From a bacterium (GTDB lineage: Bacteria > RBG-13-66-14): 14,794 nucleotides of DNA. The stretch covers positions 1-14,794 of the forward strand of contig DATKYS010000112.1 in NCBI GenBank assembly GCA_035528375.1, in the 5' to 3' direction. Positions within the stretch are counted from its first letter, which is position 1. Each line of letters begins with the position of its first letter. The notes below the pieces were generated by a model. It was not told the DNA's origin and made no database searches. It saw nothing but the letters and a program-made list of their open reading frames with translations. This document shows positions 2-4,435 of this stretch, piece after piece. The translations under genes and the position numbers were made by a program.

Positions 2-382
2 GCGCTGGAGAACGTGATGCTGCCGCTCATGGCCCGGGGGGAGAGCCCGGCCGAGTCCCGGCGGCGCTCCGAGGAGATTCTCGACCGGGTGGGACTGGCC
101 GACCGTCTGGGCCACTCCCCGGCCAAGCTCTCCGGCGGCGAGCAGCAGCGGGTGGCCATTGCCCGGGCCCTGGTGGGCGGCCCGACCCTGGTGCTCATGG
201 ACGAGCCCACCGGCAACCTCGACCCGGGCACCGCCGGGCGCGTTCTGGACCTGGTCTTCGATCTCGCCGGGGCGGACGGCACGAGCTTCGTGATCGTCAC
301 CCATGACACGCGTCTGGCGGCGCGCGCCGACCGCGCCCTCTCCCTTTCCGGCGGAAAGCTCGTCCCGATGGAGGCGCGATGA
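2..382 (+). CDS. LolD-type ABC transporter ATP-binding protein, 3' part
   Basis: This is the C-terminal part of an ABC ATPase; the reading frame runs in from the left edge (ALENVMLPLM is in frame from base 2), so the Walker A half is missing. Visible motifs, in order, are the Q-loop-proximal segment ALENVMLPL typical of LolD/MacB-type ATPases, the signature LSGGEQQRVAIARAL, Walker B VLMDEPTGNLD, and the H-loop VIVTHD. Family knowledge: such ATPases power LolCDE-like lipoprotein release or MacB/FtsE-like mechanotransmission at the inner membrane. Which one applies cannot be decided, because the permease partner is not in the window. The stop codon overlaps the next start as ATGA (379-382), which indicates translational coupling to the mcsA-like gene. 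No ctsR gene lies between, unlike the Firmicutes ctsR-mcsA-mcsB-clpC order. Confidence 0.9.
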   Translation, partial: ALENVMLPLMARGESPAESRRRSEEILDRVGLADRLGHSPAKLSGGEQQRVAIARALVGGPTLVLMDEPTGNLDPGTAGRVLDLVFDLAGADGTSFVIVTHDTRLAARADRALSLSGGKLVPMEAR

Positions 383-708
383 ACTGCGATCGCTGCGGCT
401 CAGACGAGGCGGTGGTACGCTTCATCCCGGCCTGGGGCCAGGACATGGCCCTGTGTGACCCCTGCCTGGAGTTGGTCCGCTCCGAGGCGGAGTGGGAGAT
501 GTGGCTCCCCTCGCCCTCGGCCGATTTCCTCTTCGGACTGGGCGTCCCCTCGCCCCTGATCCGCATCGCCCAGCGCGGCGAGGGGCCCGTCTGCCCGGTG
601 TGCGGCACGAACTGGTCCGACTTCGCCCAGGCCGAGCGGCTGGGTTGCCCGACCTGCTACGACGTCTTCGACGACCACCTCCGGCTCTTTTACCGGTTCC
701 ACGAGTGA
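379..708 (+). CDS. mcsA: McsA-like double zinc-finger protein, lacking the UVR tail
   Basis: A 109-residue protein with four CxxC pairs: C3/C6 and C26/C29 form an N-terminal zinc finger, and C72/C75 and C90/C93 form a second. The second block (CPVCGTNWSDF, then ERLGCPTCYDVFDDHL) closely follows the pattern of McsA, the zinc-binding activator and adaptor partner of the McsB arginine kinase. Known McsA proteins are about 180 residues and continue with a coiled, UvrB/UvrC-like (UVR) segment; here the protein ends right after the second finger (FYRFHE), so that segment is absent. The start ATG sits inside the ATGA overlap with the upstream ATPase gene. The stop TGA overlaps the ATG of the mcsB-like gene by one base (TGATG at 706-710). 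This tight overlap with mcsB and the position before clpC support the assignment. Its role here is inferred to be an McsB-binding adaptor. Confidence 0.85.
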   Translation: MNCDRCGSDEAVVRFIPAWGQDMALCDPCLELVRSEAEWEMWLPSPSADFLFGLGVPSPLIRIAQRGEGPVCPVCGTNWSDFAQAERLGCPTCYDVFDDHLRLFYRFHE

Positions 709-1755: not shown

Positions 1756-1969
1756 GGACCGGGAAGCGGTCCGGGTTCGTCTGTCGGGCCGCCCCGCCCG
1801 TGGATGACGGAGCGGGGACGTTCGAGGGGGAGCCCGTGGTGGGTCTCCCGACTGACCGGACCACGGTCCGCCCGGTCCAAGGATGCGTAACTCAGATCCT
1901 CCGGCGCCACCGTCGAAAAATCGCCGTCCTTAAGGGTGGAAACCGATCCGCCCCGCCCCCGGAGAATAA
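1756..1969 (+). promoter_or_regulatory. Structured 5' leader of clpC
   Basis: A string of hairpins fills the leader. H1 is GGACCG (1756-1761), loop GGAAG, CGGTCC (1767-1772), at the predicted 5' end. H2 is CCCCGCCCGT (1792-1801), loop GGATG, then ACGG and GCGGGG with one bulged A (1807-1817). H3 pairs GGGAGCCC with GGGtCTCCC around GTGGT (about 1828-1850). H4 pairs GACCGG (1854-1859) with CCGGTC (1872-1877). Loops of H1 and H2 present GGA, the core of CsrA/RsmA sites. The SD GGAG (1961-1964) is 5 bases before the ATG. No reading frame in this stretch looks coding. Its function is inferred to be post-transcriptional control of clpC; it does not match a riboswitch I recognise. Confidence 0.55.
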
Positions 1970-4435
1970 ATGCTCGACAAGTTCACCCCGCGCGCCCGTC
2001 AGGTGATCCTCTTCGCCCGGGACATGGCCAAGCAGATGGGCCAGGACTACCTGGGCACCGAGCACCTGCTGTTGTCCCTCGTGGAGGAGTCGGACGGCGT
2101 GGCCGCCTACGTCCTGAGTAAGCTGGGCCTCCGCTCGTCCATGATCCGCTCCGAGCTCCAGCGCTTCCAGTCCTCGGGCAGCCACCGGGCCACCTCGGAC
2201 GAGAAAATCCCCTTCACCGACCGGGCCAAGCAGGTCCTGGAGCAGGCGGTGCTGGTGGCCGGCGAGCTCGGCTACAACTACATCGGCACCGAGCACCTCC
2301 TGTTGGGCCTGATCCGCGTCACCGAGGGGGTGGCCTCCAAGGTGCTCGCCCACCTGGGCTTCCAGCCCGAGGACGTCAAGAACGAGCTGGAGTCTCTTCT
2401 GGAGGAGAACCGGCGAAAAGAGGTCGCCGCCCCGCGCCGGGCCAAGCGCCCGGCCCGCGAGAAGGGCAAGGAAGAAGAGTCCCTCCTGGACGAGTTCGGC
2501 ACCGACCTGACCGCCCTGGCGCGCCAGGGGAAGATAGACCCGGTCATCGGCCGCGCGGAGGAGACCGAGCGGGTCATCCAGATTCTCTCCCGGCGGAAGA
2601 AGAACAACCCCGTCCTCATCGGCCCCCCCGGCGTGGGCAAGACCGCCATCGTCGAGGGCCTGGCCCAGCGCATCTCCGACGGCGACATCCCGCTGACGCT
2701 CTCGAACCGGCGGCTCATCTCGCTGGACCTGGGGGCGGTGGTGGCGGGGACCAAGTACCGCGGCCAGTTCGAGGAACGCCTCCAGGGCATCATCCGCGAG
2801 CTCAAGAGCTCCAAGGACGTGATTCTGTTCATTGACGAGCTGCACACCCTGGTGGGGGCCGGCGGGGCCGAGGGCGCCCTGGACGCCTCCAACATGCTCA
2901 AGCCCGCCCTGGCCCGCGGCGAGGTCCAGTGCATCGGCTCCACCACCCTGGACGAGTACCGCAAGTACATCGAGAAGAACGGCGCCCTCGAGCGGCGCTT
3001 CCAGACCATCCTCGTGGACCCGCCCACCGTCCGCGAGACCTTGGAAATACTCAAGGGGCTCCGCGACCGCTACGAGGAGTTCCACAACGTGGAGATTTCC
3101 GACGAGGCCCTCGAGGCGTCGGTGCGGCTGTCGGACCGCTACATCTCCGACCGCGAGCTGCCCGACAAGGCCATAGACGTGGTGGACGAGGCGGCGTCGA
3201 AGGTCCACCTCGGCTGCCTGGTGCCGCCGGCGGAGCTCCGGGACCTGGAGCGCGAGCGCGAGGAGCTGCTGCAGCGGCCGACCGAGCCCGGCGACGGCTT
3301 CTCCGAGGCGCTGCGCGAACGCGCCCTCGAGCTGGACCGCATTGACCGCGCCATCTCATTCTCCAAGCGCCGCTGGGAGCACTCCCTCGAGGAGACCCGC
3401 GGCCTGGTGGACGTGGACGACGTCATGGAGACCATCAGCCGCTGGACCGGCATAAAGATTACCCGCATGGCCGAGGACGAGCAGATGAAGCTCTTGCGGA
3501 TGAAGGACGAGCTTCACCGGCGGGTGGTGGCGCAGGACGAGGCGATAGACGCGGTGACGCGGGCCATCCGCCGCAGCCGCGCCGGCGTCCGCGAGCCCAA
3601 CAAGCCCATCGGCACCTTCCTCTTCCTCGGACCCACCGGCGTGGGCAAGACCGAGCTGGCCAAGACGCTGGCCTGGTTCCTCTTCGACGACGAGTCCGCC
3701 GTAGTGCGCGTGGATATGAGCGAGTACATGGAGAAATTCTCGGTCTCGCGGCTCATCGGCGCGCCTCCGGGATACGTGGGCTACGAGGAGGGCGGGCAGC
3801 TCACCGAGCGCGTCCGCCGCAAGCCCTACTCCGTGGTGCTCCTCGACGAAATCGAAAAGGCCCACCCCGACGTCTTCAGCCTGCTCCTCCAGGTGATGGA
3901 CGAGGGGCGGCTGACCGATTCCCTCGGACGCACCGTCAGCTTCCGCAACACCGTGGTCATCATGACCTCCAACCTCGGCACCCGGGACATCAAGGACATC
4001 AACGCCATCGGCTTCGGCTCCGACGCCTTCACCGGCGACTACTTCGCCATGCGCGACAAGGTCATGGAGGAGGTCAAGCGGCTCTTCAACCCGGAGTTCC
4101 TCAACCGGCTGGACGAGACCGTGGTCTTCCACTCCCTCACCAAGGACGACCTGCGGGAGATAGTCAAGCTGCAGCTCAAGAAGATAAAGCTGCGGTTGGC
4201 CGAGCAGGCCGTAGCCATCGAGTTCACCGACCGGATGCTGGAGCGGGTCATCACGGACGGTTACGAGCCGAGGTTCGGCGCCCGGCCAATCCATCGCGCC
4301 ATCCAGCGCCTCGTCGAGGACCCCCTGGCCGAGGAGCTCCTCAAGGGGACCATCAAGGAGGGCGACCTGGTCGAGGTGGACCACTCCGGCGAGGCAACGA
4401 TCTTCACCCAGTCCAAGCTGCCCAGCGCGGTTTAG
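1970..4435 (+). CDS. clpC: ClpC, AAA+ unfoldase of the ClpCP protease
   Basis: An 821-residue Hsp100 protein, close to the usual 810-850. It has two N-terminal Clp repeats (about 1-145), AAA1 with Walker A GPPGVGKT (218-225) and Walker B VILFIDE (284-290), a short middle domain of ClpC type (about 415-475, not the long ClpB coiled coil), AAA2 with Walker A GPTGVGKT (554-561) and Walker B VVLLDE (622-627), and a D2-small domain. The tripeptide IGF (680-682) is the loop that docks onto ClpP, so it should feed a protease. Both N-domain GTEH motifs are intact (Glu31 and Glu108), the positions that bind phosphoarginine in Bacillus ClpC. The ATG at 1970 is preceded by GGAG at 1961-1964. It lies downstream of mcsA/mcsB-like genes but has its own promoter and leader and a dedicated terminator. 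The product unfolds ATP-dependently and translocates adaptor-delivered substrates in the cytosol. Confidence 0.97.

Follow-up and report, generated by a model that had tools for sequence, protein, structure and literature searches.

Natural, recurrent loss of catalytic residues in McsB suggests a kinase-independent role beside McsA and ClpC

Introduction

McsB is currently studied as the writer of a bacterial degradation mark. In the B. subtilis enzyme, each of the single arginine-to-lysine changes at R29, R31, R34, R125, R176, R207, and R337 abolishes kinase activity (PMC7235348). The kinase-dead B. subtilis mutant C167S partly supports the degradation of MgsR, with a half-life of 12.3 min compared to 17.7 min without McsB, and this residual effect was read by the authors as a kinase-independent adaptor function (PMC7235348). 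Here, we describe an McsB homologue encoded in contig DATKYS010000112.1, a 14.8-kb stretch of DNA that was analyzed as a whole (hereafter, the window) and belongs to a 2.63-Mb genome in 144 contigs. The nearest named relatives are Candidatus Coatesbacteria, with McsB identities of 87% to RBG_13_66_14 (L029) and 73% to L028. The window opens with the 3' part of a gene for a LolD-type ABC transporter ATPase, followed by mcsA, mcsB, a 250-bp gap, and clpC. Our analysis suggests a natural, recurrent McsB pseudokinase, best understood as having a role independent of kinase activity: at a probability of about 0.6, purifying selection maintains it as a noncatalytic partner of McsA, and it most likely serves as a tag-free recruiter or controller of ClpC-ClpP.

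Results and Discussion

A predicted McsB fold with a dismantled active site

The mcsB-like gene (positions 708 to 1718; 336 amino acids; on the plus strand, like the LolD-type gene, mcsA, clpC, and all codons given below) yielded weak but specific matches to the family models NF053707 (81 bits) and PF00217 (31 bits), and its best sequence matches in the PDB were all McsB. The curated NF053707 cutoff of 500 bits was not reached, a score attained in only 2 of the 386 genomes of our survey (see below), those with intact McsB included. Fold prediction, which the sequence-only reading of this DNA had proposed as a check, returned an McsB fold. The AlphaFold model, with 53 aligned homologues as input, had a mean predicted local distance difference test (pLDDT) score of 92 and a predicted template modeling (pTM) score of 0.90, and residues 8 to 336 of the model were superimposable on the solved McsB 6fh3 (Z score, 34.1; 2.6 Å; 329 of 336 residues aligned). 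The McsA-bound S. aureus McsB (8gqd) was matched with a Z score of 26.8 and a TM score of 0.8, while animal arginine and creatine kinases matched the first domain only (Z scores of 15 to 18). The predicted structure has the two-domain McsB fold, including the dimerization domain.

The window protein is thus like the McsB kinases of B. subtilis, G. stearothermophilus, and S. aureus (6fh1-3, 6tv6, 8gqd, and 8wtb) in both domain folds and in the gene order mcsA-mcsB-clpC, and it shares with them R34, N35, F41, D122, H123, G162, G172, H182, N225, E251, and R341 (residue numbers follow the solved B. subtilis and G. stearothermophilus sequences). Unlike them, it lacks the catalytic Glu, Cys, and Arg residues, the E212 loop, and the R337/D338 pocket. 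In the alignment, T32 (801 to 803) replaces Arg31, Q112 (1041 to 1043) the catalytic Glu121, S158 (1179 to 1181) the active-site Cys167, and G167 (1206 to 1208) Arg176; furthermore, the loop reads GPVGGG (residues 201 to 206; 1308 to 1325), is four residues shorter, and is devoid of the catalytic Glu212. These replacements, GPVGGG included, had been claimed in the sequence-only reading and were confirmed by alignment to solved McsB. It had missed V116 in place of Arg125 (1053 to 1055), T198 in place of Arg207 (1299 to 1301), and, at the phosphoarginine pocket, P322-R323 instead of Arg337-Asp338 (1671 to 1676), the last of which rests on a short C-terminal alignment and is less certain than the other sites.

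Kept in the window protein are R30, R35, and R326, corresponding to R29, R34, and R341, so that among Glu121, Glu212, Cys167, and Arg29, Arg125, Arg176, and Arg207, only Arg29 is retained. Since single arginine-to-lysine changes inactivate B. subtilis McsB, a protein with this set of losses should be inactive. Judged by its residues, the window McsB has almost certainly lost its kinase activity, and none would be expected in the test tube. In its kinase loss, it resembles the C167S mutant, which retains some effect on substrate degradation (PMC7235348); however, C167S is an engineered single change, whereas the loss in Coatesbacteria is natural, affects nearly the whole active site, and is fixed across genera. 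Searches of the window genome with NF053707 and PF00217 revealed no second guanidino kinase, the mcsB product being the sole protein matched by either model. This ruled out a backup by an intact McsB or another guanidino kinase elsewhere in this genome.

The altered gene is conserved in the Coatesbacteria family

Most of the losses are repeated in orthologues with 87, 86, 73, 42, and 36% identity, and because five orthologues share most of them, they are not due to chance. The substitutions are common to the genus, and the protein of G006 (42% identity) is altered at the same positions, in part with other letters. The protein of G005 (36% identity) has R31T, C167S, and the loop deletion as in the window McsB and carries Asp at position 121, but it retains R125, R176, and R207. 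Therefore, the active site eroded stepwise within the family.

The mcsB gene is located upstream of clpC in all seven genomes of the family. It was matched directly in six of them; in the seventh, that of the sister genus G004 (L105, G004:C75), the contig breaks off inside mcsB at a distance of 670 bp from clpC, and the final 33 codons can be read (C-terminus LWLMQPTLSRVAAAARGLPIELWRAEVLAELRS, followed by the stop). The seeming absence of mcsB from this sister genus was an assembly artifact, as its C-terminal codons are visible upstream of clpC.

Within the genus, the ratio of nonsynonymous to synonymous substitution rates (dN/dS) was 0.28 to 0.42 for mcsB, 0.10 to 0.14 for clpC, and 0.10 to 0.26 for mcsA. 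The higher values for mcsB than for clpC could indicate a vestige, i.e., a decaying pathway in which the kinase was lost first and McsB is on its way out without an important function. The stepwise erosion, with G005 as an intermediate, is in line with such a decay, as is the lack of any mcsB in several related families of the Coatesbacteria phylum. However, the mcsB ratio is well below 1, the reading frames in the analyzed set are intact, and the gene is kept beside clpC in 7 of 7 family genomes. Together, the dN/dS values and the family-wide retention show that mcsB is not a dead gene, and we consider a vestige unlikely.

Partners: a tail-less McsA and a complete ClpC

The mcsA-like gene (379 to 708; 109 amino acids) overlaps mcsB by TGATG. 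Its product matches NF053706 with 30 bits over the second zinc finger as well as the McsA chains of 8wtb and 8gqd, and both CxxC-CxxC zinc fingers are kept (C3/C6/C26/C29 and C72/C75/C90/C93). As the sequence-only reading had stated, the protein stops after its second zinc finger, 16 residues past the last Cys, and the C-terminal UVR-like tail is missing. The use of this feature as a pillar of an adaptor argument did not hold: G007, a genome of the same phylum, encodes an intact McsB beside a similarly tail-less McsA (31 residues past the last Cys), and the tail is present in most kinase-dead lineages, which rules out tail loss as the partner change that goes with kinase loss. A review covering the McsA-McsB structure from S. 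aureus (8GQD) places the C-terminal zinc finger of McsA in contact with the loop that immediately precedes the catalytic Cys of McsB (PMC12467219), and the McsA chain in this PDB entry comprises 59 residues only. Therefore, the absent tail need not block binding, and the window McsA presumably binds McsB.

The clpC gene (1970 to 4435; 821 amino acids) shows a full-length match to B. subtilis ClpC. It encodes both Clp_N repeats, two AAA modules, and the IGF loop for ClpP, and one ClpP is encoded elsewhere in the genome. The GTEH motifs noted earlier at Glu31 and Glu108 are present. Their description as weak evidence was justified, since the same pockets occur in ClpC of same-phylum genomes without mcsB; they were consequently discarded as a sign of a working phosphoarginine readout. 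The arginine phosphatase YwlE, which we assume should carry an NTCR loop, was also considered as a pathway marker. The low-molecular-weight-phosphatase-like proteins of G000 have CTGNSCRS and SCRDAARG loops, and the NTCR loop is missing both there and in G007. Since G007 has an intact McsB, this marker was uninformative.

Catalytically altered McsB recurs across bacteria

Our survey comprised 386 genomes across bacteria and provided 135 readable McsB homologues outside the Coatesbacteria family. Seven charged catalytic sites were scored (five Arg and two Glu, with Asp accepted for Glu). All seven were kept in 106 homologues, and at least two were lost in 27. An McsA with two zinc fingers adjoins 18 of these 27 altered proteins; a few of those without McsA are so divergent that the alignment or the identity as McsB is doubtful. 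Most Megasphaera proteins show R125C, C167S, R176I/T, and R207C/S, and further altered McsB proteins were found in Anaeroglobus, Dialister, WOR-3, and some Krumholzibacteria. The scan that gave these named examples favored Ser at position 167 by its pattern, so S167 is biased there and the other sites are not. By these residues, McsB that is predicted to be catalytically dead is recurrent in several lineages besides Coatesbacteria, and the restriction to a single lineage in the sequence-only reading was too narrow. The proposed comparison of related genomes revealed most of the same losses in the family orthologues and no second intact mcsB, either in the window genome or in 20 genomes checked, each of which encodes one McsB, the altered one. 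An altered McsB is the sole copy at L034-L040, L045, L048, L052, L054, and L055 (Megasphaera, Anaeroglobus, and Dialister) and at L031 and L032 (WOR-3); the Veillonellaceae include cultured species.

In the McsB tree, well-supported branches force at least four changes of the dead label, a count that is uncertain because the dead proteins form long branches. R337 is lost in 41 of 44 dead McsB proteins versus 21 of 110 intact ones, but these are raw counts with only 3 to 5 independent pairs on the tree, too few to correct the co-loss for phylogeny. We also compared 31 positions with a conservation of 97% or more among intact McsB proteins, eight of them catalytic and 23 others. Retention at catalytic versus other positions was 0.12 versus 0.52 in Coatesbacteria (P = 0.03), 0.36 versus 0.79 in Megasphaera (P = 0.007), and 0.05 versus 0.68 in Chlamydiota (P = 0.0006). 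Divergent but intact McsB proteins showed no such difference (0.92 versus 0.87). At L217 (G250:C36:17799-18800), an otherwise well-conserved mcsB frame is interrupted by two in-frame TAG codons.

McsA is adjacent at 38 of 49 kinase-dead loci, and clpC lies downstream at 26 of these 38 compared to 71 of 88 intact loci. At 46 of 131 loci in unrelated lineages, mcsA comes right after a LolD-type ATPase gene or shares an overlap with it. This gene, which also overlaps mcsA in the window, could indicate that the dead McsA-McsB pair acts outside ClpC, for instance in a regulatory role linked to the transporter operon or to ClpX. ClpX has been proposed as a partner of B. subtilis McsB (PMC7235348), and the Chlamydia mcsAB genes are not adjacent to clpC (PMC10128030). 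However, clpC directly follows mcsB in the Coatesbacteria family and is found downstream at most dead loci with McsA, and the LolD link is equally common with intact McsB (32 of 88 versus 12 of 38 dead loci). Thus, an action outside ClpC is quite unlikely. A conserved arrangement lolD-mcsA-mcsB-clpC emerges, with the LolD-type gene present at about a third of the loci regardless of the kinase state.

Chlamydiota

The 1.0-Mb survey genome G267 (L176) has the order pyrH-frr-tRNA-Glu-tRNA-Lys-mcsA-mcsB-tRNA-Thr-secretin, with gene names taken from a reading of its open reading frames. This is the Chlamydia layout, and by it, the phylum of G267 would be Chlamydiota. An McsB match was detected in 77 of the 92 genomes of this phylum, none of them exceeding 200 bits. 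The catalytic set is missing in all 52 proteins that were read (L171, L176, and L261-L310): C167, R125, and R207 are kept in none, and R337 is lost too. Essentially invariant are R34, N35, F41, N119, H123, G162, G172, G218, N225, E251, and R341, whereas the most variable positions include those of the active site. The whole Chlamydia phylum, as assigned by gene layout, thus almost certainly has an McsB that should be catalytically dead. That a homologue persists in most of these genomes, and that every protein read combines a dead active site with one constant set of structural residues, also speaks against a vestige.

Like the window McsB, the chlamydial protein (CT675 type) is a natural case of catalytic loss, here of all catalytic residues, with McsA retained. 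It differs in representing a separate lineage, in having mostly D, N, or H in place of C167, and in having T or S in place of R29; furthermore, the McsA tail is present in those looked at, and clpC is located elsewhere on the chromosome. Chlamydia McsB has been annotated as an arginine kinase and called one in the literature, and phosphoarginine signaling was proposed (PMC5177608, PMC11708050). On this premise, McsB-directed phosphoproteome work is planned in Chlamydia (PMC11708050), while according to its sequence, McsB should not be such a kinase. No published report of catalytic loss in McsB was found in the literature searched, a search that most subscription papers fell outside.

The variability at the chlamydial active site bears on another explanation, namely, that the site was remodeled for another chemistry or ligand, as in a transferase or a nucleotide or peptide sensor, and that "pseudokinase" is the wrong term. 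Some supposedly dead kinases have turned out to have other activities. Consistent with this, S158 and T32 do not vary among the five family members that were aligned, and confidence in the predicted fold stays high around the cleft. However, the phosphate-binding arginines are nearly all gone, and the variable positions in Chlamydiota are unlike a new shared active site. We therefore regard other chemistry as very unlikely.

Proposed role of the McsB pseudokinase

Since the McsB fold, the McsA partner, and the place beside clpC are kept while the chemistry is lost, a protein-protein function is the best explanation. The complete McsB fold, with its phosphotransferase and dimerization domains, would neither transfer phosphate to arginine nor offer a phosphoarginine pocket. 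Instead, the McsA-McsB complex would hold clients, the ClpC N-domain, or both directly, and substrates would be recruited to ClpC-ClpP, or ClpC-ClpP controlled, without a phosphoarginine tag. Such a ClpC adaptor would have a parallel in MecA, which binds the ClpC N-domain and its client without a tag. The likeness of the window McsB to MecA and other phosphorylation-free ClpC adaptors is one of proposed role only, and a relation in sequence was neither expected nor found. The sequence-only reading had proposed a pure adaptor without phosphorylation. Of this, the kinase loss in a protein that is kept stands, as judged by structure, family-wide conservation, purifying selection, and single copy; the arguments from the McsA tail and from GTEH fell away.

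Several points weigh against a tag-free ClpC adaptor. Canonical McsB proteins were among the sequences in the AlphaFold alignment. The dN/dS of mcsB is two to four times that of clpC in the same genomes, and therefore the constraint on mcsB is relaxed. The retention contrast is partly circular because the dead groups were chosen by their lost catalytic sites, although retention at the noncatalytic positions is unaffected by this. Moreover, according to Kirstein 2007, the adaptor role in B. subtilis is reportedly usually tied to the active, phosphorylated McsB kinase. Finally, in the C167S experiment, ClpX and not ClpC was suggested as the partner (PMC7235348).

A broader view, which we hold tentatively and at slightly less than even odds, is that kinase-free McsA-McsB pairs are widespread, repeatedly evolved phosphorylation-free regulators of ClpC, that all Chlamydiota, including Chlamydia, use them, and that the adaptor function is separable, with the phosphoarginine mark as one of its uses. 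If many phyla keep the scaffold for a distinct task, nature itself would have separated the adaptor role of McsB from its kinase role, and McsB function could be tested without the chemistry.

Other features of the window

The LolD-type ATPase gene (2 to 382; PF00005, 49 bits) is truncated by the window edge, leaving its 3' part, and overlaps mcsA by ATGA. In the gap between mcsB and clpC, TGCTATAAT at positions 1741 to 1749 resembles an extended -10 element; a consensus scan revealed no full sigma-70 site. Given this resemblance, clpC may have its own promoter.

Downstream of clpC, a short open reading frame (4802 to 5164) encodes a product that has a signal-like N-terminus and contains several copies of an acidic, YITDDPDYA-like motif, with no Pfam match for the tested C-terminal part. 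An 83-bp unit is present in 2.3 copies between rpsG and fusA (10515 to 10704), and a 59-bp tandem unit with at least 3.3 copies, 94% alike, extends downstream of tuf to the window end (14568 to 14773).

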